Assembly (NCBI RefSeq): GCF_001997345.1
Contig: NZ_CP019606.1
Coordinates: forward strand, 2,666,001-2,730,000
Reading direction: 5' to 3'
From: Tessaracoccus aquimaris
GTDB taxonomy: Bacteria > Actinomycetota > Actinomycetes > Propionibacteriales > Propionibacteriaceae
DNA: 64,000 nt
Positions within the stretch are counted from its first letter, which is position 1, and every line of letters begins with the position of its first letter. Below the pieces are notes generated by a model. The model ran no database searches. It saw only the letters and a list, made by a program, of their open reading frames with translations, and had not been told where the DNA came from. A program made the position numbers and the translations under genes. Shown here in pieces: positions 34,866 through 51,615 of the stretch.

Positions 34866-35230
34866 ATGATCCGCATGCACGACGACCTGGCGACGATCCC
34901 GCTGACCCGCGACCTGTTCGACGAGCGGGAAAGGGTGCTCCTTGAGACTTCCCACACCCGGATCACCGCATCCGCCTTCGCTTCGGGCGTGGCGGCCCTC
35001 ACGATCGTCACGCCGCGCGTCCAGGCCGTGCTCCTTCCGTTCCGCGGGCAGCAGGTGTGGCGCTACCGGGTCGACGGTGAGGAGATGACGATGCGCACCC
35101 ACTTCGACGAGCCGGCTCGTTCGACGAAGTTCGGTGAGACCTACGGCCCCTTCATGCTGCACTGCGGCCTCACCGGGATTGGGGCGCCCTCTCCTCAGGA
35201 CACCCATGCCCACCACGGCGAACTCCCTAA
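34866..35230 (+). pseudogene. DUF4432 (aldose-epimerase-like) gene, 5' fragment interrupted by IS
   Basis: The first 121-odd codons of a DUF4432 protein, a galactose-mutarotase-like fold. The frame runs MHDDLATIPLTRDLFDERE through GVAALTIVTPRVQAVLLPF to HAHHGELPN, where an IS1380-type element enters. ATG at 34866 or, more likely, at 34875 (7 bases after CACAAT). Read with the 3' fragment starting at 36942, after removing the IS and one CTAA copy, the frame is continuous (…GELPNADYERPSLL…). The gene was probably for sugar recognition or epimerisation and is now disrupted. Confidence 0.9.
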
Positions 35231-36941
35231 CCTCGATGTTTCATCGGGTTGGTGAGCGGGGGCGTTCGGCGTCGTTGCCGGTGTTCAGCTGCTGATTCTG
35301 GCATGTGGGTGTGACAGATCGTCGCAGTGTCCGTTGCGGGCGGTCGGGTTCCACTCCCGAGAGGAGGATTCTGCTGGTCGGTGGGGCGGGTGGAGCCGCC
35401 TGGTCAGGTCTGTGCGACGGCGGTGCGGAGCCGGTTCATGCCGGTTAGGACGGTTCGGGCTTCGGGGGCGTGTTCGGCGAGATGGAGGACCTTGTGCCGG
35501 CAGCGGCGCACGAGAGTCGCGGGGATCTCGAACAAGCGTGCGCGGAGCCGTTTGGGTTCCCACTTCCTCGCGTCATGGCCGGTCAGAGCTATGGTCTGCA
35601 TCCAGGCGACGAGCTCGGAGGCGAGCTGGATGATCTGGCACCAGATCTGGTTCTGCGCGAAGCCCTGCAGCGGGAACTTCATCAAGCCCAGGTCCTTGGC
35701 GTTGCGGATCCGGTCTTCGCATCGTGCGCGGCGGCGGTGACGCAGCTCGAGGACGGGTAGCTGGCCGCGCGGGGTGTTGGTGGCGAACGCGGTGATGCGC
35801 ATTCCTTCGTGATCGGTGATCCGTAGTTGCGCTCCGGGGTGGGGGCGTTCCTTCCGCACGATCACCCGCATCCCGGCAGGCCACCCGGACAGGTCCAGCA
35901 GTCCGGTCAGCTCCGCCACCCACGCCCCCTCGCGGATCCCGTCGGTATCGGTGTCATAGGCCGGAGTCCACGCCTGCGCCTCATCGATATGTTCCAGCAG
36001 GTCAGGAGTGTGCGCGGGGAGAGTGAACCCGACGGAGTAGGCCAGCCGCCGCCTGGTCAGCCACTTGACGAAGTCCTTGGTGCCGCCGGCTCCGTCGGTG
36101 CGGATCAGAATCTTCTTCGACCCCCGCCTGCTCCGGGCCAGCAGGGCTGGTGGGAGCTGCGCGAGCGCGGCCTTGGTGACGGTGATGTGATCAGCCGCGG
36201 TGTTCGAGCCGGCGTTGCCGGGGCGGAGATGGATCGCCAGCGGTTCCCCAGTCCCTTCGCTGCCGTGGTCGAGGAACGCGCACAGCGGGTGATAGCCGAA
36301 GCCGCGTTTGAACGTCGGTGCGGCCTGCTCCTTCTCGCTGTGGACGTTGATCAGGGTGGCGTCGAGGTCGATGACCAGCGGGCTCTTCGCACTGGCCCCC
36401 GCGGCGGGGGAGTGCTCCCCGGCCAAGGCCCAGGCCCGTTCCCGCGCGGCGCGACGGGCATTCGAGATCGCCTCGATCACGGCGGGCGCGTCCTCAGCCA
36501 GCGTGGTGAGCATGCGGGAGATCGTGGGGGCCGAGGCGACGTCACCGAACAGGTCCGGTTCGCACCGCAGCAGATCAGCATCCGAAGCGTGCTCGCCGCC
36601 GATCGCGAGAGTGAGTGCGAGATCCAGCAGGACCTTCGAGCTGTGATGCTCTGCCAGCGGTTTCGTCCACGAATCCAGCGCCTCACGCAGCGAAGCAGCG
36701 AGGCCAGTGGCGTGAATCGTGTCGGTCAGCAGCACAGCGCCCGCATGCGCGAGGGCCGGAACCTCGGCGACGTCCACCCGCGGACGGGGGTAGAAGAACA
36801 AGGTAGGGTGGGACACCTGAAAGGTGCTCCTTCCAGCGGATGGCTACGGGTCTCAACACCTCGTATCATCCCAGGCCAGGAGCACCTTTCGCCATTCATT
36901 CCGCCGGTCGAGACCACACCCCCGTGAAATCTCGAGGCTAA
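35227..36941. mobile_element. IS1380-family insertion sequence with 4-bp target duplication
   Basis: The element spans 35231-36937 (1,707 bases). Its ends are imperfect inverted repeats: left CCTCGATGTTTCATCGGG, right (read inward) CCTCGAGATTTCACGGGG. It is flanked by direct repeats CTAA at 35227-35230 and 36938-36941, the 4-bp duplication typical of IS1380. It carries one transposase on the minus strand. The transposase frame is intact and the target gene reads through once the element is removed, both pointing to a recent insertion. Confidence 0.95.
35404..36816 (-). CDS. IS1380-family transposase
   Basis: 470 residues, intact. It has the DDE transposase fold with IS1380 landmarks: LVIDLDATLINVHSEKEQA (first acidic residues), FGYHPLCAFLDHGSEGTGE, LAIHLRPGNAGSNTAADHI, ILIRTDGAGGTKDFVKWL (second Asp), and the C-terminal RCEDRIRNAKDLGLMKFPLQ (Glu region). 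It catalyses cut-and-paste movement of the element. The start is 121 bases inside the right end. G+C is close to that of its neighbours. Confidence 0.96.
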   Translation of the reverse strand: MSHPTLFFYPRPRVDVAEVPALAHAGAVLLTDTIHATGLAASLREALDSWTKPLAEHHSSKVLLDLALTLAIGGEHASDADLLRCEPDLFGDVASAPTISRMLTTLAEDAPAVIEAISNARRAARERAWALAGEHSPAAGASAKSPLVIDLDATLINVHSEKEQAAPTFKRGFGYHPLCAFLDHGSEGTGEPLAIHLRPGNAGSNTAADHITVTKAALAQLPPALLARSRRGSKKILIRTDGAGGTKDFVKWLTRRRLAYSVGFTLPAHTPDLLEHIDEAQAWTPAYDTDTDGIREGAWVAELTGLLDLSGWPAGMRVIVRKERPHPGAQLRITDHEGMRITAFATNTPRGQLPVLELRHRRRARCEDRIRNAKDLGLMKFPLQGFAQNQIWCQIIQLASELVAWMQTIALTGHDARKWEPKRLRARLFEIPATLVRRCRHKVLHLAEHAPEARTVLTGMNRLRTAVAQT

Positions 36942-37647
36942 CGCTGACTACGAGCGCCCGAGTCTTCTGTTCGGCTCGACAGACGGAGTCGACACCGTTG
37001 CGCTCACGGGCACCGCCCAGGTACGCACCAGCCACCTGCTGTCGGCGACCTTCACCCCACGGATCACCCTGCGCAGCGACAGCCCGGCGCTCCGCTTCGA
37101 CATGGACATCACCAACCAGCGGCGCACTCCGATGAGCTACTCGTACCTGTGCCACGTGAACTGGGCGCCCGTTGACGGTGCCGAACTCGTCCAGCCCGTG
37201 CGACCAGCCCTGCCCGACTTCAAGGTCGACCCGCACCCCGGCCAGACGCCGGAGACGGCCGCGTACACCGCGCGCATCTCTGCCGACCCAACGCTCTCCA
37301 ACCGGATCGACCTCGCGCAGTCGCTGGTCCCCGAGTACTGCGCGGTCCTGACGCCCACTCCAGATGAGTCCGGCTGGGCCGAATTCCTCATGGTCCGGCC
37401 GGACGGTAAGGCCGCTTCGGTGCGCTACGACACCACGCGCCTGCCTCACGCCATCCGGTGGATCTCGAACACCGGCGACGAGGAGGCCGCTGGGTTCTGC
37501 CTTCCATCGACTGCCCACCACCACGGCCGCGCCGCGGCCGAGGCTGACGGCATGCTCGTCGAACTGGCCCCCGGAGCCAAGCACCACCTGGTCGTGATCG
37601 CGGACGTACTGGACGCCTCGACGGCCTCCTCACGACGTGCCGGCTGA
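36942..37647 (+). pseudogene. DUF4432 gene, 3' fragment after the IS
   Basis: In the frame continuing the 5' fragment it encodes ADYERPSLLFGSTDGVD, then TPRITLRSDSPALRFDMDIT and YLCHVNWAPVDGAELVQP, typical of the DUF4432 beta-sandwich core, ending ASTASSRRAG. It has no start of its own near the junction and is preceded by IS sequence, so expression of this half would need read-through. Its 3' end overlaps the next HAD gene by 11 bases, showing an original two-gene operon. Confidence 0.9.
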
Positions 37648-38323
37648 ACGGCCCCTTGGTGCCACGGATCGCCCTCTGTTCGTCTACGACCTCGACGGGG
37701 TCATCACGACCCGGGACACCTTGACGGCCCTGATTGTCGAGCGCCTGCGATCGCGACCCGGTCGCGCCCTTCGGGCGATACCTCACGCTGCCACGCGACT
37801 GTTCTGCCGCGGTGCCGCCCGACACGACCGTGCCCGTGCAGTCGTCGGACACGCACTGGCCGGACTCGGCCTGGATGAGTACGAGCGACTTGCCGCGACG
37901 GTCGGGGCCCGACTCGGCTCGGATTCACGCTGGATCCGGCGCGCGGTGTGCGAGCGGCTCCGGTCGCGACACGCAGCCGGAGCCCGCATCGTGATCGCGA
38001 CAGCGAGCGAAGAACTGCTCGTCAGAGCGCTCCTGGAGGGTGCGGGCGTGCCGTTCGACCTGCTGTCCGCCACCACACTGGGCACTGGCCGCTCGGGACT
38101 GCGGGTGGACGACTACCGGATCGGTCCCCGCAAGGCGACGGCGCTGCTCCAGGCCGGGGTGCGGATCGACGAGGCCACCTTCGTGACCGACTCGACGACC
38201 GACCTTCCGACTGCCCGGCTGGCGGCATCGGTCGAGCTGGTGGGAGCCTCACGGCGGACCTCTGCCGCCTTTCGTCGCGCGGGAGTCGCGGCTGACGAGG
38301 GGCAGGGCACCTCAAGACGTTGA
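37637..38323 (+). CDS. HAD-superfamily phosphatase (SerB-like, subfamily IB)
   Basis: 228 residues from a GTG that overlaps the end of the DUF4432 gene by 11 bases. Motif I is FVYDLDGVITTRDTL, motif II is IVIATASEELLVRALLEGAG, the Lys is in GPRKATALL, and motif IV is FVTDSTTDLPTARLA. This is the phosphoserine-phosphatase-like (HAD-IB) layout. The substrate is unknown. It lies in the sugar-related DUF4432 operon and faces the large catabolic operon tail to tail, 48 bases away. IS insertion upstream may have lowered its expression. Confidence 0.82.
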   Translation: MPAERPLGATDRPLFVYDLDGVITTRDTLTALIVERLRSRPGRALRAIPHAATRLFCRGAARHDRARAVVGHALAGLGLDEYERLAATVGARLGSDSRWIRRAVCERLRSRHAAGARIVIATASEELLVRALLEGAGVPFDLLSATTLGTGRSGLRVDDYRIGPRKATALLQAGVRIDEATFVTDSTTDLPTARLAASVELVGASRRTSAAFRRAGVAADEGQGTSRR

Positions 38324-38371
38324 GGGCTCCGCCGCCGCTGGCAGGTCGGCGACGGAGCCTATAAGCGTTGG

Positions 38372-39412
38372 CTACTCGTACAGGTTGGCCGCGATCGCGG
38401 GGTCGTCGAGGTTGGTCGCGTCGTACCACTCGAAGCCGGAGTCGATCACCTCGGGCAGCGTCTGACCGTCGATGGCCTTGATGGCCGCGATGACCGTCTC
38501 ATAGCCCATCTTGACCGGGGCCTGAGTGATGGCGCCGGCCTCCGAGCCGTCCCGGATGGCGTCCAACTGCGTCTTGCCCGAGTCGAAGCCGACGACCGTG
38601 ACATCGGCGTTGCCCGCCTCCTTCACTCCCTGCACGACACCGCCCGCTGCGGCCTCGTTGGTGCCGTACATACCCACGACGTCAGGGTTGGCTTGCACGA
38701 TCGACTTGGCCGCGTTTGCCGCGAGACCGACCTCCCCCGCGTACTGCTGCTGCAGCACCTTGATCTCTGGCGCGTTGTCCTTCATCCAGTCCTGGAAGCC
38801 GCGACAGCGGTCCTTGGCACTCTGCGAGGTCTGGTCGTGGCAGACGAGCCCCACCGTTCCCTTGCCGCCGATGAGCTCGGTCAGGTGCTCCGCAGCAGCC
38901 TGGGCGGCGGCATAGTTGTCGGTCTGCACAGTGGTCACCGGCACATCGGAGTCGACGGCGGAGTCGAACGCGATCACGGGGATCTTCGCTGCGGCGATCT
39001 CCTGCAGCACCGGCTCTGCGGCACCAGAGTCGAGCGCGGCGAACCCGATGGCCGCGGGCCGCGAGTCGAGGGCCGTCTTGAGCTGGTCCAACTGCTGCGT
39101 GACCTTCGTCTCGTCGTCGGGACCGACGAAGGCGATCTTGTAGCCGAACTCCTCGCCCGCCTGTTCTGCTCCCTCCTTCACGGCCTGCCAGTAGCGGTGC
39201 TGGAAGCCCTGGGAGACGAGGTAGATGGTCTTGGTGCCATCCCCCCTAGGCACGTCGCCGCTCGGCGCCGACGATTGGGCGGGTGAGGCCTGCTTCGAGG
39301 CCGGGGCTTTCGAGCTGGGCGCGCTTGGCCCTCCGGCGCTGGAGGTCGAGCACGCGCTGAGGCCGAGCACAAGCACGGCGGATGCGGCGATTGCCTGGCG
39401 CAGGATGCGCAT
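38372..39412 (-). CDS. ABC sugar-type substrate-binding lipoprotein 1 (RbsB-like)
   Basis: 346 residues. The lipobox is VLGLSAC (Cys at residue 21), followed by a Ser/Pro/Ala-rich linker to about residue 58, then a periplasmic-binding-protein type 1 fold (TIYLVSQGFQHRYWQAVKEG, PVIAFDSAVDSDVPVTTVQ, TVVGFDSGKTQLDAIRDG). It is the last gene of the minus-strand catabolic operon and the second binding protein in it, sharing only general fold features with the one at 46556. A perfect 8-base hairpin lies just upstream, suggesting separate control of its level. Confidence 0.9.
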   Translation of the reverse strand: MRILRQAIAASAVLVLGLSACSTSSAGGPSAPSSKAPASKQASPAQSSAPSGDVPRGDGTKTIYLVSQGFQHRYWQAVKEGAEQAGEEFGYKIAFVGPDDETKVTQQLDQLKTALDSRPAAIGFAALDSGAAEPVLQEIAAAKIPVIAFDSAVDSDVPVTTVQTDNYAAAQAAAEHLTELIGGKGTVGLVCHDQTSQSAKDRCRGFQDWMKDNAPEIKVLQQQYAGEVGLAANAAKSIVQANPDVVGMYGTNEAAAGGVVQGVKEAGNADVTVVGFDSGKTQLDAIRDGSEAGAITQAPVKMGYETVIAAIKAIDGQTLPEVIDSGFEWYDATNLDDPAIAANLYE

Positions 39413-39430
39413 GGCGGTTCCTTCCTGTCG

Positions 39431-39521
39431 GTCGGGAGTCCGTTCTCCCGACTGGCTGGTCTGGCTGGGCGCGACCGGATCTGGGCGCGCGCCACCAACG
39501 GCTCCGCCGGGTGGCGGAGCC
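39431..39521 (-). promoter_or_regulatory. Two intercistronic inverted repeats before binding-protein gene 1
   Basis: GTCGGGAG-TCCGTT-CTCCCGAC (39431-39452) and a second perfect 9-base stem GGCTCCGCC/GGCGGAGCC with loop GGGT (39500-39521) fill the 128-base gap between the ASRT-family gene and binding-protein gene 1. Neither has a T-tract. They look like mRNA-stabilising or processing hairpins that would set the higher level usually seen for binding proteins. Confidence 0.6.
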
Positions 39522-39540
39522 GGAGTCGGTTGAGAGTGCG

Positions 39541-39903
39541 TTACTCGCTGTATCCAGGGGTTGTGTAGAAGGCCATCTCTGGTTGCCTGACGTCCAGGCG
39601 GCCGTACTGAGCGACGATGGGTGCATCGGCAGACAGCGAGATCGCATACTGCTCCCCGACCGGCACCTCTACGCCGCCCATGTCGGAGGGCTCATTGGTG
39701 CGAAGGCAGCGCACCCTCTGGCCCTCTACCCGGAACTCGAACTGCGCTGGGGCCTTGTCTGTGTACCACAGCGTTGCGCGGACGGCGACGGGTGCGAGGT
39801 TGGTGTTGAGCACGATGATCGACTCGTGGCCGTAGAGTTCGCCGCCGGGTCCGTACGGGGGCAGCTCGGCGTCCGGGAACACCCAGGTGGTGCGCCCGGT
39901 CAT
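39541..39903 (-). CDS. Sensory-rhodopsin-transducer (ASRT) family protein
   Basis: 120 residues matching the whole ASRT family: WVFPDAELPPYGPGGELYGH, then ESIIVLNTNLAPVAVRATLWY, RCLRTNEPSDMGG and APIVAQYGRLDVRQPEMAFY. The founding member from Anabaena binds the photoreceptor ASR and forms a beta-sandwich tetramer; most homologues sit in bacteria without rhodopsins. No rhodopsin gene is in this window. Here it overlaps the NodB-type deacetylase gene by 4 bases within a catabolic operon, so a role in binding a carbohydrate or metabolite is more likely than light sensing. That role is inference. Confidence 0.88.
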   Translation of the reverse strand: MTGRTTWVFPDAELPPYGPGGELYGHESIIVLNTNLAPVAVRATLWYTDKAPAQFEFRVEGQRVRCLRTNEPSDMGGVEVPVGEQYAISLSADAPIVAQYGRLDVRQPEMAFYTTPGYSE

Positions 39904-40814
39904 GCCCGCACCGCCTGACGCTCGCGCACCAGTTCGGGCAGGTCCTTCGACATCTTGAACTCGGCGCCGGCGTCCAGCAGCCCGCGGAGCAGGACGCGGA
40001 ACTCGTCCAGGGCGACGTCGCCGCAGTTTTTGGTGATGAACTCGTCGGGGATGACGGTTGCCTCGCCGAAGTTGTAGCTCTCCTCCACGGGCCAGAACTC
40101 CCAGGGATGGATGTAGTAGCAGAGGAAGGTGTCGATTCCCTTGTCCCTGCAGAACTCATCGAAGGCCAGGGAACGCTCCAGCATGTACTGGCCGCCGATG
40201 GTGCGAAACAGCGGCCACTGGTCACGGTCGCGCTCCAGGCCGGGGTCGTTGGATTCCATGGTCATGTCGGCGAAGTTGGGGATCTGGAGCAGTGTCGAGT
40301 CGCCGGGCTTGGTCCAGTCGTTGAGGTCGACGAAGTAGGGCTCGAACTGTTCGCGGTAGAAGTACATGGGGTAGGTCAGGTCGGCGGTGTATCCCAGCTT
40401 CGCGAGGGACTGCACCACGGCCGTCGACCCCCACAGACGTGGGCAGCGGAAGGAGACGGGACGCACCCCGGTCGCCTTCTCAACGAGTTCGGTGTTCAGT
40501 TCGATCCGAGGGAACACCTCATGGGGAAGGATCGGCTTGGTGCCGGGCAGGTCGAAGAGAGGGTCGCCGACCGTCTCGTGCTGGTACGAGTGACAACCGA
40601 CTTCATGGCCACGGGTCAGGCACTCCTTGGCGACCTCGGGGTGCGCAGCGGCAGCCTCCCCGGTGAACAGGAACGTCGTCTCGATGCCCAACTCGTCGAA
40701 CAGGTCGAGCAGACGGGGCGTGCCGTTGACGAGGCCCTCGTAATAGGGCGTGAAGCTGCCGACATCGGTCTCCATGTCGATGCCGATGACGACTGTGATG
40801 GGGTTTCTTGTCAT
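39900..40814 (-). CDS. NodB-type polysaccharide deacetylase family protein
   Basis: 304 residues with no signal peptide, so probably cytosolic. The NodB fold motifs are visible: metal/base Asp in VIGIDMETDVG, the H-x3-H pair in GCHSYQHETVGDP, and RCPRLWGS. The C-terminus has FLCYYIHPWEFWPVEESY. Cytosolic NodB-family enzymes include allantoinase-type amidases, so it may hydrolyse a small N-acyl or cyclic amide rather than a polymer. It overlaps the ASRT gene start by 4 bases and follows the LacI regulator gene after 68 bases. Confidence 0.87.
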   Translation of the reverse strand: MTRNPITVVIGIDMETDVGSFTPYYEGLVNGTPRLLDLFDELGIETTFLFTGEAAAAHPEVAKECLTRGHEVGCHSYQHETVGDPLFDLPGTKPILPHEVFPRIELNTELVEKATGVRPVSFRCPRLWGSTAVVQSLAKLGYTADLTYPMYFYREQFEPYFVDLNDWTKPGDSTLLQIPNFADMTMESNDPGLERDRDQWPLFRTIGGQYMLERSLAFDEFCRDKGIDTFLCYYIHPWEFWPVEESYNFGEATVIPDEFITKNCGDVALDEFRVLLRGLLDAGAEFKMSKDLPELVRERQAVRA

Positions 40815-40882
40815 GTCCGGGTACTCCTCAGGTCCGGCCGTCGGTGGCCGGTGGATTGCTGACTGGTGGGTGATGTGTGTGA

Positions 40883-41869
40883 TCAGGTGGTTTCGCCGAG
40901 GCGGAACACGGAGTTGAGAGGCTCGGAGTTGTCGACCGGTTCCCCAGCGAGGCTCGCCTCAAGACGGTCACAGGCAAGTGCCGCGATCCGGTCCAGGGGC
41001 TGCAGCATCGTGGTGATGACTGGGCGCATGAACTCGTAGGTGTCGATGTGGTCGAAGCACGCGACCGCGACGTCGGCGGGCACCGACAGGCTCTGTCGCC
41101 TCACCGCCCGGATGGTCGCGTAAGCAAGCACGTTGTTTTGAGCGATGATCGCGCTGGGCCGATGCGGCCCCTCCAATAGTTCGACCGCCTTGGCGTAGCC
41201 GTCGGCGTACTCGAAGCGCCCGTGCGCGATCCACTCGTCGCGGAGTTCCAACGAGTTGGCCTCCATCGCCTGACGGAAACCCTCTGTGCGTTCCACCGCC
41301 GAGGACTCGCCGGGCGACCCGGTGATGGTGGCGATCGCGGTGTGCCCACGGTTGATCAGATGCTGCGTCAGTTCGAAGGAGGAACGCACGTTGTCGACGC
41401 CGACGTAGGCGAATCCGTCGGGGATCGCTGGCCTGTTGTCAATGAACACGACGCGGCTGAGCAGGTCGCGCGGCAGGCCCGCATATGCGTCACTTCCCGC
41501 GGTCGCCACGACCATGGCGTCGACGGTCGCAGAACGCAGATGCCCGAGGAACTCGCGTTCGCGCTCCGGGTTCTCCCCAATGTCGAACAGCACCGGGGTG
41601 AACCCGGCAGGGCCGAGCCTGTGGTCGATCTCCTTGAACAAGATGGCGTAGAACTCGTTGCTGATGTCGGGGACGACGACCCCGATGGAGTTGGCCGACT
41701 GCGACTTGAGCCGCTGGGCCAACTGGTTCGGATGGAAGTCGATTTCCTGAGCGTAGGCAAGCACCTTGTCGATGGTGTCCTGACCGACGCGCCCCTTCCC
41801 GCTCAGCACCCGGGACACCGTCGACACGGAGAGGCCCAGATGCGCAGCGATGTCGCGCAGAGTCGCCAT
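40883..41869 (-). CDS. LacI-family transcriptional regulator
   Basis: 328 residues. The N-terminal HTH is LRDIAAHLGLSVSTVSRVL with the hinge helix PNQLAQRLKSQSANSIG, followed by a periplasmic-binding-protein-like effector domain (GVVVPDISNEFYAILFKEID, AIIAQNNVLAYATIRAVR, VACFDHIDTYEFMRP). It is encoded inside the operon between the permease and the deacetylase. LacI-like palindromes occur upstream of the first gene and of binding-protein gene 2, so it probably autoregulates the whole unit in response to the imported substrate or a breakdown product. Confidence 0.93.
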   Translation of the reverse strand: MATLRDIAAHLGLSVSTVSRVLSGKGRVGQDTIDKVLAYAQEIDFHPNQLAQRLKSQSANSIGVVVPDISNEFYAILFKEIDHRLGPAGFTPVLFDIGENPEREREFLGHLRSATVDAMVVATAGSDAYAGLPRDLLSRVVFIDNRPAIPDGFAYVGVDNVRSSFELTQHLINRGHTAIATITGSPGESSAVERTEGFRQAMEANSLELRDEWIAHGRFEYADGYAKAVELLEGPHRPSAIIAQNNVLAYATIRAVRRQSLSVPADVAVACFDHIDTYEFMRPVITTMLQPLDRIAALACDRLEASLAGEPVDNSEPLNSVFRLGETT

Positions 41870-41890
41870 GGCAACAGACCAATCTCGGGT

Positions 41891-42871
41891 TCAGGATTTC
41901 TTCGAGTTCACGTCGATGAGCACCACTGTAATGAGGATGGCGCCCTTGACGATCCACTGGAAGTAGGTGTCGATTCCCATCAGGACCATCGCGTTGGTGA
42001 TGACCCCAGTCAGCAGCGCGGCGATGACCACACCGATCACATTTCCCTTGCCTCCGAACAGGGACGTCCCGCCGAGCACCACGACTGTGATGACGTCGAA
42101 GAGCATCGACTCGCCGAGCGAGGCGGCCCCGGACATCGTCCGCGCCGTCAAGCCGATGGAGCCGAGCGTGGCGAGCAGGGAGCACAACACGAAGGCAAGC
42201 ATCCCGATGAACTTGACGTTGATGCCGCTGAGCCGGCTCGCATCGGGGTTGCCTCCGACTGCGTAGAAGCTGCGTCCAAGCTGAGTGTGGGTAGTGAAGA
42301 TGTAGCAGAGGGCAGCCACAATCACCATCAGATAGACGGGCACCGGGACGTTGAAGAGGTACCCCATCCCGAGGTAGTTCATCCAACCTGGCAGACCGCT
42401 GATCGGGAGGCCTCGCGAGTAGATGTAGGCAACGCCCATGAGGACGTTCATCATCACGAGCGTCGCGATGAAGGCCGGTACCCGCCCGTAGACGACGAGG
42501 GCCCCGTTGATCAGCCCGATCAGGACCGCGGCGGCGAACACAACGAGGATGGCGAGGCCGACAGGGAGGCCGCTCTTGGCGACCAGCCCGGCGAGCAGGA
42601 CAGACGTCAAGCCGATCGACGAACCGATGGAGAGGTCCATGTGGGCGATCAGGATGACGAAGAACTGGCCGAGGGCAACGATGGTCAGGAACGAGACCTG
42701 CCGGGCGATGTTCATCAGGTTGCCGAGTTCGAGGAACCGGTCGATGAACACGGCGCACAGGACGAACAGCGCCGCGAACAGAAACAGGATCATCCACTCG
42801 TTCATGAAGCTTCGCAAGCCGCCGGTGTAGCGCCGCGACTTGTCTGCGTAGGTGGCGGTGGCTGTTGACAT
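41891..42871 (-). CDS. RbsC-like ABC transporter permease
   Basis: 326 residues with about eight to ten membrane helices. It has the BPD_transp_2 family pattern: GQFFVILIAHMDLSIGSSIGLTS, LINGALVVYGRVPAFIATL, and AVGGNPDASRLSGINV near the cytosolic coupling helix. It forms the membrane channel with the ATPase encoded immediately upstream; the stop and start codons overlap (TGATG), so the two are translationally coupled. The transported compound is unknown but this family usually moves monosaccharides or small polar molecules. Confidence 0.93.
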   Translation of the reverse strand: MSTATATYADKSRRYTGGLRSFMNEWMILFLFAALFVLCAVFIDRFLELGNLMNIARQVSFLTIVALGQFFVILIAHMDLSIGSSIGLTSVLLAGLVAKSGLPVGLAILVVFAAAVLIGLINGALVVYGRVPAFIATLVMMNVLMGVAYIYSRGLPISGLPGWMNYLGMGYLFNVPVPVYLMVIVAALCYIFTTHTQLGRSFYAVGGNPDASRLSGINVKFIGMLAFVLCSLLATLGSIGLTARTMSGAASLGESMLFDVITVVVLGGTSLFGGKGNVIGVVIAALLTGVITNAMVLMGIDTYFQWIVKGAILITVVLIDVNSKKS

Positions 42872-44358
42872 CAGTGGGCTCCCAGGAGGCTCGTCATGAT
42901 TTCGGATTGGTTGCGGCGCTCACCCTCGACGACGTCGCGGACACGGCCCTCGTAGAGGACGTAGATGCGGTTGCTGAGGCCGAGCAGTTCCTCGACCTCG
43001 GGCGACACGAGCACTACCGACTTTCCTGCCGCCGTCAGTTGTGCAATGAGCTTGTAGATCTCGGACTTGGCGCCGACGTCGATGCCGCGGGTGGGTTCGT
43101 CCATCAGGAAGATCTCGGTGTCCGCAAGAAGCCACTTGGCGATGACGATCTTCTGCTGGTTGCCGCCCGAGAGCTTGAGGGTGCTCTGCCATAGGGACGA
43201 GTAGCGAAGGTTCAGCGCGCCGAGGGTGTCGAACGAGTCGCGCAGTTCGCGCCCCTCGTTCATGAACGGGCCACGGCGGTACTTCGCCATCGAGGCGAGC
43301 GTGGTGTTCTTGCGCACGTCGAGGGCCGAGTTCAGGCCGAGCCGTTTCCGTTCGTCGGGGATGAACCCGAGGCCGAGTCCGATGGCCGCCTGGGGCGAGC
43401 CAAGTCGGGCCCGTTTCCCATCGATCCACAGCTCACCGGAGGTGACCTTGTAGTCGCCGAAGATCGCGCGAAGCAGTTCGGTCTTGCCCGCACCGACGAG
43501 GCCTGCGATCCCGACCACCTCGCCGCGCCGGACATGCAGGTCGACGTCGGCGAAGGAGTCCGAGGTGAATCCCTTGACCTCGAGGATCACCTCGTCACGC
43601 GGGATCGGCAGGGGTGGGAACACCTGGCTCAGCGCGCGGCCGGCGATCATCTCAACGAGGGCCGGTTTGGTGAGGTCGGCCACCTTGTCCGTCTTGATGT
43701 GTCGCCCGTCCATCAGGACGGTGTAGGTGTCGCAGACCTCGAAGATCTCGTCGAGGCGGTGCGAGATGTAGATCACGCCCTTGCCGTCTGCCTTCAGCAG
43801 CCGCACGATCCTGAAGATGTTCTCGATGTCCTGCTCCGGAAGCACCGCGGTCAGCTCATCCAGAATGATGACCTTCGCCTCCTGTGACAGGGCACGGGCA
43901 AGCTGCACGAGCTGCTTCTCCGCAGTGCGCAGGAACTTCACGGGGACGTCGAGCGCGATGTCGACGCCGAGGTAGGCGAGCAGTTCCCGCGCCTTGGCCC
44001 GTTGCCTCTTCCGGTCGATGAACGGGCCGCGCTTTGCGTAGTGCCCGACGTAGATGTTCTCCAGCGCGGTCATCTCATCCATGAGCTGGAACTCCTGGTG
44101 CACGATGGCGATGCCATGGCGCTGCGAGTCCCGCACCGCGAAGCCTGCCGGGAGTTGCTCCCCTTCGACGAGGATCTCGCCCTTGGTGAGTTGGTTCTCT
44201 CCGATGATCGCCTTCGCCAGGGTCGACTTACCCGCGCCATTCTCGCCGACGAGGGCGTGGCACTCTCCTGGTTGAAGCGCGAACGACACGTCGTTGAGAG
44301 CCAGCACTCCGGGGAACTCCATGGTGGCTCCCTGCACCTCCAACAGCGGCGCGGTCAT
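42871..44358 (-). CDS. RbsA/MglA-type ABC transporter ATP-binding protein (two NBDs)
   Basis: 495 residues, the usual length of fused sugar ATPases. NBD1 has Walker A GENGAGKST, but its signature region reads LRTAEKQLVQLARAL and Walker B ends ILDELTA, so the usual DEP Pro is Leu. NBD2 has a degenerate Walker A (GLVGAGKTEL) and a canonical signature LSGGNQQKIVIAKWL with FLMDEPTRGIDVGAK. It powers import with the RbsC-like permease and the two binding lipoproteins. It starts 4 bases inside the end of the upstream hydrolase gene. Confidence 0.94.
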   Translation of the reverse strand: MTAPLLEVQGATMEFPGVLALNDVSFALQPGECHALVGENGAGKSTLAKAIIGENQLTKGEILVEGEQLPAGFAVRDSQRHGIAIVHQEFQLMDEMTALENIYVGHYAKRGPFIDRKRQRAKARELLAYLGVDIALDVPVKFLRTAEKQLVQLARALSQEAKVIILDELTAVLPEQDIENIFRIVRLLKADGKGVIYISHRLDEIFEVCDTYTVLMDGRHIKTDKVADLTKPALVEMIAGRALSQVFPPLPIPRDEVILEVKGFTSDSFADVDLHVRRGEVVGIAGLVGAGKTELLRAIFGDYKVTSGELWIDGKRARLGSPQAAIGLGLGFIPDERKRLGLNSALDVRKNTTLASMAKYRRGPFMNEGRELRDSFDTLGALNLRYSSLWQSTLKLSGGNQQKIVIAKWLLADTEIFLMDEPTRGIDVGAKSEIYKLIAQLTAAGKSVVLVSPEVEELLGLSNRIYVLYEGRVRDVVEGERRNQSEIMTSLLGAH

Positions 44359-46472
44359 GACTTGTCCTCCGCGAGCCAGAGCCAGCCCAGCGCCTCGATG
44401 CCCGAACAGATGATCGCGTCGTCGCGGTGCTCGGGGTGCCGGAGGTTATACACCAACCGTTTCAGCTCGTGGTAAGGCATCATGCAGCTCTTGACGCCCG
44501 TGAAGTCGACGGGGTTCAGGTCGAAGAACATCTCCTTCGCGATGTCGAAGTCACGCTCGTTGTGCGCGAGGACGGCATCGAGGTGGCTGTCCCTCTCGAT
44601 CGGGTCTGTCGCCCGCTCATAGTCGAGCGCCGCGAGCACCAGATCGTAGATCGCCCGGTTTCGCCGTTGGGCGTTCTCCAACCGGTCGAGATGCTTGACC
44701 CAGCGGACGTGGCGGGGGTGCGCGGCCATCTTCGAGCGCAACTCGCGGATCTCGGCGAGCAACGGTTCGTGACGCGCGATCGCGTCCTCGATGGCAGGGA
44801 TGTCGTCGTCCGTCATCGTGTTGGCCTGGAACGGGAACGGCGTGGTGTAGAGGGGGATCTGGCTTTCGTGGATGGTGACCATGTCGCGCATCACGCTGAG
44901 CAGTCGCGCACCGAGGTCCGCCCCGAAGGTGGCCTCCATTGAGCCAGCGAAGAAGCGGTCCTGTTCCAGCGTCGAGCCCCAACCGTAGTTGCCGTGGGCC
45001 CATTGGTGGAGGAAGATGCCGTGCCACTCGAAGACGTACCCGTTGATGCCGTGCACATCCGCGGCGACGCTCCCAATGTGTTGCTCGATGTCCCGTTCGA
45101 TCGTCTGGGTGTTGGCCTCGTCCGGGTAGCGGATCAGGTTGGACTCAAACGTGCGGTACAGCCTGCCCATGGTCGAGGTGATGGAGTTGGACTCGCTGTC
45201 GCGCCCCCAGATGCGGTCCTTTCCGAAGGCGTCGACCCACTTGCCGAACTCGGTCTCGGGCACGTACAGGGCGGGCGCCCAGAACAGGACCACATCTGAT
45301 GGCAGCGAGGCCGCCGTCTCGCGCAGCCACGTCTCGTCCTTGACCAGTGGCGGCTGGCGGAAGGCTCGGATTCCGATCACTACGTCGGGGTTGATCTCCC
45401 GTACCGCGGTGCGGATCTGGTGCAGAAGTTCGATGTTGGCCCGGTGCTTCGCCTCACCCGGAGTGGCGCCGTCCGAACGCCAGCGGGCAAGACAGCGGTC
45501 GCACTCGCAGAACCAGAAGCCCTCCTCGCTCTCCTCGAGGGTGTAGCCGTCGAACCCGAGCCTGGCGATGTGTCGCATGCATTCGAGGATGTACTCGGTG
45601 GTCTCCTCGTCGGACAGGCAAGCGGAGTCGAAGTCGTTGAGGAAGTCGCTGCCCGCCGGAGGCACCATCCGCTTGTCGGGGTGCGCGATCGTCCAGCCGC
45701 CGTTGTAGGAGTTGAGACCGACGTAGGCGAAGACCGCCACGCCCATGGTGTGCGCGAGGTCGATGAAATCGCCGAGGAAGTCGTCGGCGACGTTGGGGTG
45801 GGAGAACGAGATGTCGAGGAAGCGCCCGGTCTCCTGGTTCCACACCTGCATGGGGATGTCGCGGTAGACGGTCTCGGGGTAGCCAGGTACCTCGAACGGC
45901 CAGTAGCCGTAGAGCACCATGTTGAGCTGGTTGATCTTGTTGTCAAGGCAGTGCTGCAGGTAGTAGATCCACTCTTCGCGACCCCACAGTTGCATGTCGA
46001 AGCCCATCCGCCCGTAGCCGGCGTACCAACTGAAGGTGGGAGCGACGGCGCGCACCGGGATGGAGGGGTGGTCGACGATCCGCGCCAGCGGGAGGCGCGT
46101 CCCATTGCCGGCCGCTTCCTCGGCCGCAATCAGCGACTTCAGCGTCGAGAGACCGTTGACCAGCCCGGCCCGTTCCTGGGCGTACAGCGTGGCGGCGCCT
46201 GGTGCGATGTCGAGCACGTAGCCCTGCTCCCGGAAGAGCGTCTGCTTCTCTCCGGCGTCCTCTCCTGCGTCACCCTGGCGGATATCGACGCGGTAGCCGT
46301 CCGTTCCGTCGAGCAATTCGGGGTAGGCGCTGAGGCGGAACTCGGCGATGCGCACGACCTCGTCCGCCGACACCTCGCCGATGTCCTCGGCGTCGAAGAC
46401 GAGCGATGCGAATGGGTCGGTTGCTCCGTCACGATCGTGCACTGTCTTGGGTTCGGGGAACGTCGCAATCAT
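44355..46472 (-). CDS. GH20-like glycoside hydrolase family protein
   Basis: 705 residues, no signal peptide, so intracellular. The N-terminal part (to about residue 135) looks like the zincin-like alpha/beta domain that precedes GH20/GH67/GH84-type barrels (YVLDIAPGAATLYAQERAGL, ARIVDHPSIPVRAV). A TIM-barrel follows (INQLNMVLYGYWPFEVPGYP, TMGVAVFAYVGLNSYN) with the segment YTLEESEEGFWFCECDRC. That C-x-C-x2-C patch resembles DUF4838-type proteins. I cannot see the standard GH20 D-E catalytic pair, so the specificity is open. The C-terminal 200 residues are helical. It probably cleaves the imported glycoside. Confidence 0.75.
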   Translation of the reverse strand: MIATFPEPKTVHDRDGATDPFASLVFDAEDIGEVSADEVVRIAEFRLSAYPELLDGTDGYRVDIRQGDAGEDAGEKQTLFREQGYVLDIAPGAATLYAQERAGLVNGLSTLKSLIAAEEAAGNGTRLPLARIVDHPSIPVRAVAPTFSWYAGYGRMGFDMQLWGREEWIYYLQHCLDNKINQLNMVLYGYWPFEVPGYPETVYRDIPMQVWNQETGRFLDISFSHPNVADDFLGDFIDLAHTMGVAVFAYVGLNSYNGGWTIAHPDKRMVPPAGSDFLNDFDSACLSDEETTEYILECMRHIARLGFDGYTLEESEEGFWFCECDRCLARWRSDGATPGEAKHRANIELLHQIRTAVREINPDVVIGIRAFRQPPLVKDETWLRETAASLPSDVVLFWAPALYVPETEFGKWVDAFGKDRIWGRDSESNSITSTMGRLYRTFESNLIRYPDEANTQTIERDIEQHIGSVAADVHGINGYVFEWHGIFLHQWAHGNYGWGSTLEQDRFFAGSMEATFGADLGARLLSVMRDMVTIHESQIPLYTTPFPFQANTMTDDDIPAIEDAIARHEPLLAEIRELRSKMAAHPRHVRWVKHLDRLENAQRRNRAIYDLVLAALDYERATDPIERDSHLDAVLAHNERDFDIAKEMFFDLNPVDFTGVKSCMMPYHELKRLVYNLRHPEHRDDAIICSGIEALGWLWLAEDKS

Positions 46473-46555
46473 CTGTGGTCCTTCTGTCCGTTCTCAGGGA
46501 GATGGATGGGGGATGGGGCCGCTCCGCGGAAGGAGCGGCCCCGGGGCGAGCTCGG

Positions 46556-47623
46556 TCAGCCGAGCCACTTCCAGCTCTGCCAATCCGTGTCGCCGATGTT
46601 GTCTGGCGTGATCGCCTCGGGCCTTGGCAGGTCGTAGCGTTCCGGCAGCTTCTCGCCTTCGGCCATCGACTTCCACAGCGCGTCCATTGCGGTGTAACCG
46701 AGCACCACCGGGTCCTGCAGGACCTCACCGAGCCACGACTGGTTGCCGTCGGCGATGTACTTCAGGACTTCCTTGTCGCCCGCGATGCCGATGAACTTCA
46801 TGGTGTCTGCCCGGCCTGCTCCAACGGCGGCGTTGTAGGCGCCGAGGACCTCGGCGTCGTTGTGACCCGAGACGACGTCGATCGTCTTCTCACGCTGGAG
46901 CACGTTCTCCATTAGCGTCTGGGCGGAGTTGCGGTCGGCGGCACCGGTGTCGCCTTCCTCGATGATCTTGGCGTTGGGATACTTGGCCTTGACGACGTCG
47001 GTGAATCCCTTGAGCCGCTGCTGGGTCACCTCGCCGGAGGTGGGGACCGTGATGAACAGCAGGGTCGGGTCGTCCTTGCCGAGCGTATCGAGGTGCTTGA
47101 CGGCGACCTCTCCCGCTACCTCTCCCAGGGCGAGCATGTCGTGGCCGACGAAGGTGTTCCACACGACGTCTTCCGGGTTGTCCGGCTGCTGCGGGTAATC
47201 GCCGACGACGAACTGCGTGCCGTTGCGCTTGTGCAGGTCGACCATTGTGGGGATGATCGCCTTGGAGTCGACCGGGAACACCACGATGCCCTTGGCGCCA
47301 GCGGCGACCAGGTTCTCCAGGTTGTTGATGTTGGTCTGGATGTCCTGCTTGCTGTCCTCGAACTGGAACTTGACCTTGGCCTCGGGGTGGTCCTTGGCCC
47401 AGTTCTCCATGCCCTCCTGCGCTCCAAGGAACCAGGCGTACTGCAGGGTGAAGATGCTTCCGCCGATGAGGGTCTCATCCTCACCGAACTTGTGGTCGCC
47501 CGCCGCCGGGCTGCCGCCGGTTGACGGCTTCTGCTCCGACTCGATGGGGCTGGAGGTGGCACCGGCGCAGCCGGTGAAGAGGAGGGCTGCTGACAACAGC
47601 AATGCCCCGAGCTTGATCCGCAT
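46556..47623 (-). CDS. ABC sugar-type substrate-binding lipoprotein 2
   Basis: 355 residues with start MRIKLGALLLSAALLFTGC; the lipobox LFTGC places the lipidated Cys at residue 19. The type 1 periplasmic-binding fold follows (FTLQYAWFLGAQEGMENWAK, IVVFPVDSKAIIPTM, VVSGHNDAEVLGAYNAAVGAG). It has longer helices and little resemblance to the second binding protein (38372), so the transporter may accept two ligands. It is preceded by the palindrome CCAACGATTGG, close in core sequence to the LacI operator before the M24 gene, and separated from that gene by about 210 bases. Confidence 0.9.
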   Translation of the reverse strand: MRIKLGALLLSAALLFTGCAGATSSPIESEQKPSTGGSPAAGDHKFGEDETLIGGSIFTLQYAWFLGAQEGMENWAKDHPEAKVKFQFEDSKQDIQTNINNLENLVAAGAKGIVVFPVDSKAIIPTMVDLHKRNGTQFVVGDYPQQPDNPEDVVWNTFVGHDMLALGEVAGEVAVKHLDTLGKDDPTLLFITVPTSGEVTQQRLKGFTDVVKAKYPNAKIIEEGDTGAADRNSAQTLMENVLQREKTIDVVSGHNDAEVLGAYNAAVGAGRADTMKFIGIAGDKEVLKYIADGNQSWLGEVLQDPVVLGYTAMDALWKSMAEGEKLPERYDLPRPEAITPDNIGDTDWQSWKWLG

Positions 47624-47662
47624 GTGGTTGCTCCATTCGGGAAAAACGGGTTGGCGAGCCAT

Positions 47663-47673
47663 CCAACGATTGG
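47663..47673. promoter_or_regulatory. Candidate LacI half-site before binding-protein gene 2
   Basis: CCAACGATTGG is an imperfect palindrome whose CAACGATTG core matches CAAACGATTG in the 49037-49054 operator. It lies 40 bases upstream of the binding-protein start. Confidence 0.45.
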
Positions 47674-47836
47674 TGTTGGTCGGCGTGAGGTGGAGGTGGT
47701 CGGTTCACCGACCGGTTGACCAGGCGTGCGGGGGTCGCCTCATCTTTGAGGGGGCTCAACAGTGAGCCTCGGCGCTTGTGGGTGCGGCGGTTGTGGGAGG
47801 GGTCGAGCCCAGCCGCGCGGGCCCGACCCCTTTGTC

Positions 47837-49006
47837 TCAGAAGGACAGTTCGACGATGTCGCCGATCTGCGGGGACAGCAGGTCGATGCCGTCGTCGGTG
47901 ATGGCGATGGGCTTCTCCCAGCGGACGCCGAAGTCGGATCCCATCCCGAAGGTGTCGATCTGGAAGGTCATGTTCCTGACGAGGTCGTAGGTCGACGTCG
48001 TCTCCATCCAAGGGGCCTCAACCTCGATGAGGCCGAGTCCGTGGCATGGTCCGTAGAGGTAGGCGTCCTTCTTGCCTGCGGCGATGAACTTCTCCTCGAA
48101 CTCCCGCGCGATCTCGCCGGAGATCCGACCGGCCTTCAACTGGCCCTCGGTCCAGCGGTGCATCTCGAGGATGAACTCGACGATGTCGCGCTTCTCGCCC
48201 CCGAGCGGGCCGAGCGAGATAGGCATGCCGATCGAAGGGCTGTACCCGTCGACCTTCGCGGAGAGGTTCAACTGGACGATGTCGCCCATCTTGATCTCAC
48301 GGTGCGAGGAGCGGGAGATGGCGTGCTTGGTCGACTTCTGGCTGAAGACGTACATCGGGAGGCCTTCGTACTCGGCCCCATGCTCGTAGATGGTCTTTTG
48401 AGCAATGCCGACCATCTGGAGTTCGGTCACGCCCGGGCGGAGGGCCTTGATGACCTCCTGGGTAGCGATGTGGGTGATGCGGGCGGCCTCTCGCAGGCAC
48501 GCGATCTCGTTGTCGCTCTTCACCGAACGGAGCGCGACCATGATGTCGCGGGCGTCGACGAGTTCCGCGCCCGGGTAGGCCGACTGCAGTCCCTGCCACA
48601 TGACCACGTTGGTGTCGAGGATGGAGGCGACACCGATTCGGAGGCTCTCGCCCTTCACGCCGAGGTGGCCGAGCACGTCCTGGTAGGTCTGAAGCGTCAG
48701 GTGCGGGTAGGCGGGATCGGCCGACTCGCGGTACTCCGCCAGCACGAAGACGTCATCGATCTTGCCGAAGTCTGCGGCGTAGATGTCGGACTCGGGGCCG
48801 ACCATCAGCGCTGTGTCGCCGTCGGGGTTGATGGCCACGCCGCAGCGTTCGAAGACGGGCCAGAAGCCGCTGAAGTAGCGGGTGTTGGCGTAGTCGGCCT
48901 CGTTTCCGTTCACGATCAGGGCGTCGAGGCCCCGCTCGCGCATCAGTTGGGCGGCTCGCTGAGCCCGATCCTTGTACTCCTGCTCGGGAATCTGAACCCG
49001 GTTCAT
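47837..49006 (-). CDS. M24-family (creatinase/aminopeptidase P-like) hydrolase lacking metal ligands
   Basis: 389 residues from the ATG at 49006 (GAGGAGAGAC upstream), preferred over an earlier in-frame start that would include the operator. It has an N-terminal creatinase domain (about 10-155) and a C-terminal pita-bread domain. The usual first metal Asp is Asn (IVQLNLSAKVDGY) and the second position falls in SPSIGMP, so the dinuclear metal site is missing. Creatinase-type His and Glu positions remain (GPCHGLGLIEVE, GVRWEKPIAI). By family knowledge this fits creatinase-like C-N hydrolases rather than peptidases. It is the first gene of the operon. Confidence 0.85.
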   Translation of the reverse strand: MNRVQIPEQEYKDRAQRAAQLMRERGLDALIVNGNEADYANTRYFSGFWPVFERCGVAINPDGDTALMVGPESDIYAADFGKIDDVFVLAEYRESADPAYPHLTLQTYQDVLGHLGVKGESLRIGVASILDTNVVMWQGLQSAYPGAELVDARDIMVALRSVKSDNEIACLREAARITHIATQEVIKALRPGVTELQMVGIAQKTIYEHGAEYEGLPMYVFSQKSTKHAISRSSHREIKMGDIVQLNLSAKVDGYSPSIGMPISLGPLGGEKRDIVEFILEMHRWTEGQLKAGRISGEIAREFEEKFIAAGKKDAYLYGPCHGLGLIEVEAPWMETTSTYDLVRNMTFQIDTFGMGSDFGVRWEKPIAITDDGIDLLSPQIGDIVELSF

Positions 49007-49036
49007 GTCTCTCCTCTCGAGGCTCACCTTCGAGCC

Positions 49037-49104
49037 TGCGCAAACGATTGTGCACGACCTTAGAGGGAGACAGGGCAAGGCGTCAACGGTTTTGCGCAAT
49101 CGTT
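49037..49104 (-). promoter_or_regulatory. Putative LacI-family operators of the catabolic operon
   Basis: TGCGCAAACGATTGTGCA (49037-49054) is a near-perfect 18-base palindrome with a central CG, as in LacI/GalR sites. A second related element, TGCGCAATCGTT (49093-49104), contains the palindrome TTGCGCAA. The centres are about 53 bases apart, roughly five helical turns, allowing looping. They lie just upstream of the first operon gene. Confidence 0.65.
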
Positions 49105-50518: not shown

Positions 50519-51568
50519 CTACTTCTTCGCCGCCACGGAGAGCTTGTCGACCAGCGACGGGAGCCCGTCCTTCCAGTCGAAGGTCAGCGCGGTGGGCGGC
50601 GAGACCGAGGAGACGGTGACGGGGTCGCTGACCTGCGCGACGCGACCGGCCTTCACCGCGGGGATCGCCTGGAGGGCTGGCTTGGTCAGGAACGCCTTCG
50701 CGTCCTGCTCGTTGGCGTGGTAGGCGATCAGGATGTCGGCATCTAGCTTGTCCAACTGCTCATAGCTGAGCTCGTAGTAGAAGCCGCCGTTCGACGTGTC
50801 CAGTTCAGAGACGCTCGGGGCCACCTTCAGGCCGAGCTCCGTGAGGATCCCGATCCGGGGGTCCGCCCCCGTGTACACGGAGACGGATCCGTCGCCGTCC
50901 CAGATGCCCGCGATCGTCTTACCCTCGAACTCGGGGTGGGCCGCCTTCATGGCCGCGAGCGAGTCGTCGATGCCGCTCAGGACCTTCTCACCCTCCGCGC
51001 CACGGCCGAGGGCCTCGGCCGTGATCGTGATGGTGTCCTGCCATCCGGTCGTCCAAGGGGCCGCGGGGTAGGCGACCACCGGCGCGATGTCGCTCAGGGT
51101 GTCGAACTGCTCCTGCGTGAGCCCGGAGTAGGGCGCGACGATCAGGTCGGGGTCGGCGGCGATGAGCTCCTCGTACGGGAAGGTGGCGCCGCCGTCAGCA
51201 TCCGTGAGCACTGCGGGCTTCTCGACGCCAGCCTCGTCGTAGGCGGCCTCGACCCAAGGCAGCAGGTTGCCTGCCCCGACGGTCCAGGACTGCTCGGCGA
51301 CCGCGACAGGGTAGACGCCGACCGAGATGGCCGCCTCGGTCGATCCCCAACCCCACGTGGCGACGCGCTTCGGCGCCTCGGCGATGGTGGCGGTGCCGAG
51401 CGCGCTGGTGATCTCGACGGGGAAGGCGTTGCTGCTGGCTTGAGGGCTGGCGGCCCCGCTCGGCGTCACGCTTGGATCGGCGTTCGACGGTCCGGCAGGC
51501 GAGCCGCAGGCGGCGAGGGCGAGCCCGGCGATGGCGAGCGCCGCGGTGATGATGCGTGGCTTCCGCAT
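50519..51568 (-). CDS. Siderophore ABC transporter binding lipoprotein (FecB/FepB-like)
   Basis: 349 residues. The lipobox LALAAC gives a lipidated Cys at residue 21, followed by a Ser/Pro linker. The helical-backbone binding fold (PBP type 2/III) is visible in APKRVATWGWGSTEAAISVG, AADPDLIVAPYSGLTQEQFD and YYELSYEQLDKLDADILIAY. It captures an iron-siderophore for the adjacent FecCD-type permeases. Last gene of a five-gene minus-strand operon. A GGGGCC-GTGAC-GGCCCC hairpin lies before its start, possibly stabilising its mRNA. Confidence 0.92.
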   Translation of the reverse strand: MRKPRIITAALAIAGLALAACGSPAGPSNADPSVTPSGAASPQASSNAFPVEITSALGTATIAEAPKRVATWGWGSTEAAISVGVYPVAVAEQSWTVGAGNLLPWVEAAYDEAGVEKPAVLTDADGGATFPYEELIAADPDLIVAPYSGLTQEQFDTLSDIAPVVAYPAAPWTTGWQDTITITAEALGRGAEGEKVLSGIDDSLAAMKAAHPEFEGKTIAGIWDGDGSVSVYTGADPRIGILTELGLKVAPSVSELDTSNGGFYYELSYEQLDKLDADILIAYHANEQDAKAFLTKPALQAIPAVKAGRVAQVSDPVTVSSVSPPTALTFDWKDGLPSLVDKLSVAAKK

Positions 51569-51615
51569 GGATTCTCCTTGGGGTTGTGGGGCCGTGACGG
51601 CCCCGGTTCTTGGGT

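Follow-up and report, generated by a model that had tools for sequence, protein, structure and literature searches.

CUT2 ribose operons carry a kinase. Creatinase works without a metal, enzymes of family GH20 use a catalytic Asp-Glu pair located where the fourth barrel strand ends, those of GH84 combine an N-domain, a barrel and a helical C-domain, and CE4 deacetylases are marked by a metal triad, an HxxxH motif and a catalytic Asp. Stand-alone ASRT-like proteins have been predicted from gene context to be intracellular sugar sensors, and one neighbourhood described in that work pairs a stand-alone cytosolic ASRT protein with a monosaccharide ABC transporter (De Souza et al. 2009, PMC2739507). 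We describe a cluster from the actinobacterium Tessaracoccus aquimaris in which relatives of these proteins stand together. The window analysed is a stretch of 64,000 nucleotides (assembly GCF_001997345.1, contig NZ_CP019606.1, positions 2,666,001 to 2,730,000) of a single-contig genome of 3.93 Mb, and all coordinates are those of the window. Nine minus-strand genes at 38372-49006 include a genuine, conserved module for catabolism. Its general type is known, and its chemistry is a reasoned guess. Tentatively, and with somewhat more doubt than confidence, we read the whole as a LacI-controlled, horizontally spread catabolic module for an N-acylated sugar conjugate.

All nine genes joined by the original prediction into one catabolic operon are present, and Pfam places them in the families it named. 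The first gene encodes an M24 protein of the creatinase/prolidase fold (47837..49006, minus strand, as are the eight others; Peptidase_M24 and Creatinase_N). It is followed by the core sugar-binding lipoprotein SBP2 (46556..47623; Peripla_BP_4), whose relatives adjoin the hydrolase in a further 11 loci of the first set compared, and by a GH20/GH84-related cytosolic hydrolase-like protein of 705 amino acids (44355..46472) with a GH20b N-domain and a barrel. An RbsA-type double ATPase (42871..44358; ABC_tran twice) and an RbsC-type permease (41891..42871; BPD_transp_2) come next, then a LacI-family regulator (40883..41869; LacI and Peripla_BP_3), a NodB-type deacetylase (39900..40814; Polysacc_deac_1, 63.3 bits against a cut-off of 23.1) and an ASRT-family protein (39541..39903; PF07100, 94 bits against a cut-off of 25), the last gene of the conserved core. 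An additional sugar-binding lipoprotein, SBP1 (38372..39412; Peripla_BP_4), closes the row. The double ATPase, the permease and the binding protein together have the Pfam composition of a CUT2 importer; no listed NCBIfam model reached its cut-off for the core proteins (for RbsA, among the best 25 of 198 models). The hydrolase and RbsA genes overlap by 4 bases, as do NodB and ASRT, and RbsA and RbsC by 1 base. The gaps measure 21 bases between RbsC and LacI, 68 between LacI and NodB, 83 between SBP2 and the hydrolase, 128 between ASRT and SBP1, and 213 between M24 and SBP2 (measured from the ATG at 47623). The junctions had been described as overlaps or short gaps, which suits most of them and is generous for the two that exceed 100 bases.

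The order M24, SBP2, hydrolase, RbsA, RbsC, LacI, NodB, ASRT is kept in all three other Tessaracoccus clusters (L027, L028 and L013/L029), and in all three a DUF4432 gene converges on the end of the cluster, about 3 kb off in L013. Within the genus, 3 of 35 other genomes searched have the hydrolase; elsewhere in the order, none of 24 has it. That the genes are unrelated units, adjacent by accident, might be argued from the two gaps above 100 bases and from SBP1 and a neighbouring HAD-family gene, which look like later arrivals. Set and order are nevertheless conserved across genomes, which contradicts such an account for the eight core genes and makes it hardly credible overall; chance adjacency of these eight was rejected on the same grounds. 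The eight genes are a real module, their adjacency going beyond chance.

SBP1 stands apart from it. No counterpart was found in the three other Tessaracoccus clusters, and SBP1 shares 38-42% identity with binding proteins that accompany an additional CUT2 transporter at five loci (L014, L015, L017, L021, L025). Strong RNA hairpins flank its gene on both sides, one between ASRT and SBP1 (39500..39521, minus strand; z -3.2 for the whole stretch, no T-run) and one downstream of SBP1 (38325..38359, minus strand; z -4.2). The former is a possible end of the core transcript; it was not flagged by the terminator scan, which gave 3 sites against 5.2 expected. SBP1 probably lies outside the ancestral core and may be, in the window, a leftover or an alternative receptor. 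Two binding lipoproteins are present as predicted, both of them Peripla_BP_4 proteins and hence of different subfamilies rather than unrelated. Membership of SBP1 in the pathway is not supported.

The co-occurrence of M24, GH20-like, NodB and ASRT families, which the original prediction left to be checked in other genomes, is found elsewhere, so that the genes did not prove to be companions in this genome alone; a large part of the cluster also turns up in Clostridia, Spirochaetes and another actinobacterial class. A pattern scan of the genome collection returned 14 hydrolase loci in Tessaracoccus, Clostridia and Spirochaetes, with best segments 53-68% identical; an M24 gene is in view in 11 of the 14 and an ASRT gene in 9. 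Whole-genome profile searches placed the hydrolase in 5 of 396 Actinomycetota (the window's own genome counted), another class of that phylum included, in 8 of 139 genomes of a spirochaete order and in 3 of 391 genomes of a clostridial class, and the plasmid collection gave zero matches. Around the distant copies of the hydrolase (40-47% identity; L061-L065, L072, L073), M24 proteins of 25-38% identity are seen in six of seven loci and ASRT in five. Within the spirochaete order all eight hydrolase genomes carry the M24 subfamily at E <1e-200, and a creatininase-type protein is found at E <1e-150 in six genomes, all among the same eight; a seventh match, in genome G580, is weak (2.9e-11). Contigs end near the genes in L018, L019 and L024, and therefore absence there means little; genome G566 is a fragmentary draft. 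In locus L026 (8857-12605) the hydrolase gene is flanked by genes for a Gfo/Idh dehydrogenase and a ureidoglycolate-lyase-like protein. Judged by these comparisons, a CUT2 importer, a GH20/GH84-like hydrolase, an M24 protein whose metal site is incomplete, an enzyme of an amide-hydrolase family and ASRT travel together, often with DUF4432. The hydrolase tree interleaves the phyla, which fits horizontal transfer.

The kinship of the hydrolase with GH20 and GH84 is upheld by both fold comparison and profile. The GH20b N-domain exceeds its Pfam cut-off, the match to the GH20 profile has a probability of 96.7%, and GH20 and GH84 chains occupy most of the fold lists, although families that do not appear in these lists are not thereby excluded. 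Glyco_hydro_20 is not among the Pfam families listed for the window hydrolase or for 14 members of the group. In the profile alignment, by which the catalytic residues were mapped on shallow alignments, E313 and E314 fall on the Asp and Glu of the GH20 motif HIGGDE; this Glu-Glu pair is invariant in all 12 sequences compared, distant clades included. Four cysteines (C285, C322, C324, C327) are likewise invariant in 12 of 12 and could constitute a metal site. The hydrolase might instead act on a glycoside lacking a 2-acylamino group, with the amide step falling on the aglycone, in which case the common product would not be an amino sugar. We consider this unlikely, since the fold lists are filled mostly by chains of families that act on N-acetylhexosaminides, and 24 of 27 genomes pair the hydrolase with a deacetylase or amidase.

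The presumed amide step is filled in two ways. Every one of the 13 transporter-bearing loci of the first set, the window included, carries one of two proteins, NodB or a member of the creatininase family (PF02633), and none carries both. Neither is in view in L018 and L026, whose genomes encode the creatininase type elsewhere. Counted genome-wide over 27 distinct hydrolase genomes (G027 and G060 taken as one, and weak partial NodB-domain matches of about 1e-12 in G674 and G750 left out), 12 have NodB only, 12 the creatininase type only, none both and three neither. The three are the fragmentary G566 and, with an M81/MlrC-type metallopeptidase gene just upstream of the hydrolase, G674 and G750. 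The M81/MlrC-type protein is possibly a third filler of the step; it is not a clean alternative, because G431 holds it as well as NodB. In the distant branch, M81/MlrC-type genes lie beside or near the hydrolase in L072 (7311-8783), L073 (11586-13055) and L062 (1-816). The hydrolase tree shows the creatininase clade as one switch nested among the NodB rows (97/95) and the M81 pair as another. The pattern, read from this tree, is that of one inherited replacement kept across two phyla, not of many independent ones. A probability of 2.6e-5 for the lack of overlap between NodB and the creatininase type was rejected as proof, the genomes being related and the tree requiring a single switch; two probabilities calculated for co-occurrence suffer in the same way.

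The window NodB itself, with Polysacc_deac_1 above its cut-off, has D13, E15, D17, H75 and H79 invariant in six of six sequences, and the usual TFDD motif does not occur in its literal form. In L014 (17140-17733), L020 (17341-17913), L066 (8872-9432) and L067 (6869-7438) the creatininase-type gene is followed by one for a maltose-acetyltransferase-like hexapeptide protein. The creatininase, M81, Gfo/Idh and M24 proteins of relatives that were scanned against NCBIfam all stayed below the cut-offs of the models listed. Some of their scores bear on the idea that the substrate is an amino-cyclitol or another carbocyclic sugar mimic, the creatininase-type or NodB enzyme then acting on a keto-cyclitol or an N-acyl-inosamine. 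The creatininase-type proteins weakly match IolN, the 3-dehydro-scyllo-inosose hydrolase (about 53-55 bits, cut-off 245), SBP1 weakly matches a rhizopine binding-protein model (71 bits, cut-off 420), and genes for inositol-dehydrogenase-like Gfo/Idh proteins adjoin the hydrolase gene in L026 and lie in its vicinity in G431. All such matches are far under the curated cut-offs, however, creatininase scores higher (61-71 bits) and the hydrolase is nearest to hexosaminidase folds, and a carbocyclic substrate seems to us quite improbable.

The M24 protein has the domain pair Creatinase_N and M24, and its best solved relatives by sequence are aminopeptidase P and prolidases, with creatinase (1chm) lower. 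The metal ligands of Escherichia coli PepQ are Asp246, Asp257, His339, Glu384 and Glu423 (PMC4213023). The alignment sets N247, S258, H322, D351 and E364 of the window protein at these five places, so that the D, D, H, E, E set of M24 metallopeptidases is incomplete, with N247, S258 and D351 replacing the canonical D, D and E. Among 32 aligned rows, one of them truncated and some drawn from clusters lacking the hydrolase, 31 have residues at the two Asp places; the first is always N, G or A, the second always A, S, T or V, and D occurs at neither. Both metal-binding Asp residues being missing, the protein is not an ordinary metallopeptidase, and the C-N hydrolysis that had been ascribed to it is not supported, the metal site being incomplete. 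H322, E328, E330 and D351 do not vary in any of the 31 rows, nor does E364 in the 29 that reach it; H228 is not invariant (18 of 32). The loss of both Asp ligands in all 31 rows, together with the association of M24 and ASRT where no hydrolase is found, would suit a pseudo-enzyme with a regulatory rather than catalytic part in the pathway, its ligand being a sugar or a partner protein such as ASRT. We find that doubtful to a marked degree: the five conserved residues look like a retained active site, and creatinase is an enzyme without these metals.

The M24 group is broader than this module. A run of three tandem M24 paralogues and ASRT stands behind CUT2 genes in G588 (L090 14788-18752) and fills a short contig in G493 (L092 205-4215), no hydrolase being found in either; in G506 (L094 1965-11452), in another cluster lacking the hydrolase, a CUT2 set, two M24 genes, an FGGY kinase and a protein of the L-ribulose-5-phosphate 3-epimerase family form one run. 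Membership in this wider group of sugar clusters suggests that the M24 step concerns the sugar side. The ASRT protein matches PF07100, and W7 and N33 are invariant in 10 of 10 copies; the SHEshChhN signature is incomplete in all ten, its His being kept and its Cys absent.

Control of the cluster can be approached through its upstream region. A promoter-like TTGACG - 18 bases - TAAGGT (49057..49086, minus strand) precedes the M24 gene, and in the four aligned Tessaracoccus upstream regions an invariant GTTGAC and a -10-like element are followed by a LacI-type operator block. In the window the predicted operator is GTGCACAATCGTTTGCGCAG (49036..49055, minus strand), an imperfect palindrome just behind the -10 element that aligns with the palindromes of three relatives; in those relatives (L013, L027, L028) the block passes the palindrome test. 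A candidate second operator half or site, resembling the operator by eye, lies upstream of the -35 element (49091..49104, minus strand). A consensus promoter scan yielded 0 sites (0.9 expected) and did not flag the promoter-like element. The arrangement of the block fits repression by the operon's own LacI protein. A further RNA hairpin separates SBP2 from the hydrolase gene (46515..46542, minus strand; z -2.7).

The DUF4432 gene, which faces the operon and had been proposed to share its pathway, belongs to the set in several lineages, and its window copy is split by an insertion element. The 5' piece (34893..35230, plus strand; tblastn match 34893-35252, clipped at the element's end) and the 3' piece (36979..37578, plus strand; tblastn match) enclose an element at 35231..36937 with a DDE_Tnp_1_4 transposase (35404-36816, minus strand), a CTAA duplication of 4 bases on both flanks and imperfect terminal repeats (17/24); from the transposase domain we take it to be of IS1380 type. 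The strain may lack the DUF4432 step or cover it elsewhere. The reading frame at 33222-34271 was rejected as the DUF4432 gene, being a ferrochelatase. The interrupted DUF4432 gene and the operon are separated by a HAD-family gene (37637-38323); the three sister clusters yielded no counterpart of it, and its proposed role in the pathway as a phosphatase gains no support. Upstream of the operon, at 50519-53495, the translations suggest by eye a putative iron-siderophore-type uptake set of binding lipoprotein, ATPase and permease.

The original prediction grouped the genes largely correctly, while the chemistry it proposed is unproven, as is a guanidino compound as the substrate, which finds no support. 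In the route we favour, SBP2 with RbsA and RbsC would import a small N-acylated sugar conjugate, and the hydrolase would cleave its glycosidic bond inside the cell through E313 and E314. NodB or its replacement would remove the acyl group or open the amide, and the M24 protein might act, metal-free in the manner of creatinase, on the other part of the molecule. DUF4432, where intact, would supply a mutarotase or epimerase step, ASRT would sense a sugar intermediate, and LacI would leave the operator when substrate or product is present. As the core has no kinase or aldolase, general sugar metabolism is the probable destination of the product.

Several observations weigh against this route. The window hydrolase matches no catalytic-domain family above cut-off, and its family has Glu where GH20 enzymes have Asp. 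The L026 hydrolase has no adjoining transporter genes, and three of the 27 hydrolase genomes encode neither NodB nor the creatininase type. The exchange of these two enzymes, being one event on the tree, is only modest evidence of their equivalence. M24/ASRT sets also occur in CUT2 clusters lacking the hydrolase, and two of the 139 spirochaete-order genomes (G493 and G588) carry the M24 subfamily without it. The window copy of the operator falls below the palindrome threshold.

Our search of open-licence papers found no description of the cluster. It is conceivable, if rather unlikely, that the module breaks down a class of N-acylated sugar conjugates whose catabolism has yet to be described, that its M24 protein belongs to a new metal-free pita-bread group acting on sugars, and that bacteria of guts, digesters and the environment have passed the module, along with an ASRT sensor, from one to another by gene transfer. 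Should the route favoured here be right, one defined and testable pathway would cover several unassigned proteins at once, namely the Glu-Glu hydrolase, the M24 protein without a full metal site, the step fillable by NodB or creatininase and the cytosolic ASRT protein, and identifying what SBP2 binds would give access to them all at one stroke.

Like the ASRT neighbourhood of De Souza et al., the window combines a stand-alone cytosolic ASRT protein with a monosaccharide ABC transporter; the portions of that paper considered here name no M24, GH20-like or NodB neighbours (PMC2739507). The M24 protein shares by sequence the two-domain pita-bread architecture of creatinase, prolidase and aminopeptidase P, with 1chm among its matches, and differs from them in its incomplete canonical metal ligands. 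The hydrolase resembles the GH20/GH84 N-acetylhexosaminidases in its GH20b N-domain, barrel fold and profile match, and is unlike GH20 in having Glu-Glu rather than Asp-Glu, four invariant cysteines and no match to the GH20 catalytic-domain model. The cluster as a whole follows CUT2 (RbsABC-type) sugar operons under LacI control in its binding protein, double ATPase, permease and LacI regulator. Unlike the CUT2 ribose operons, it has a hydrolase, a NodB-type enzyme, an M24 protein and ASRT in place of the kinase.

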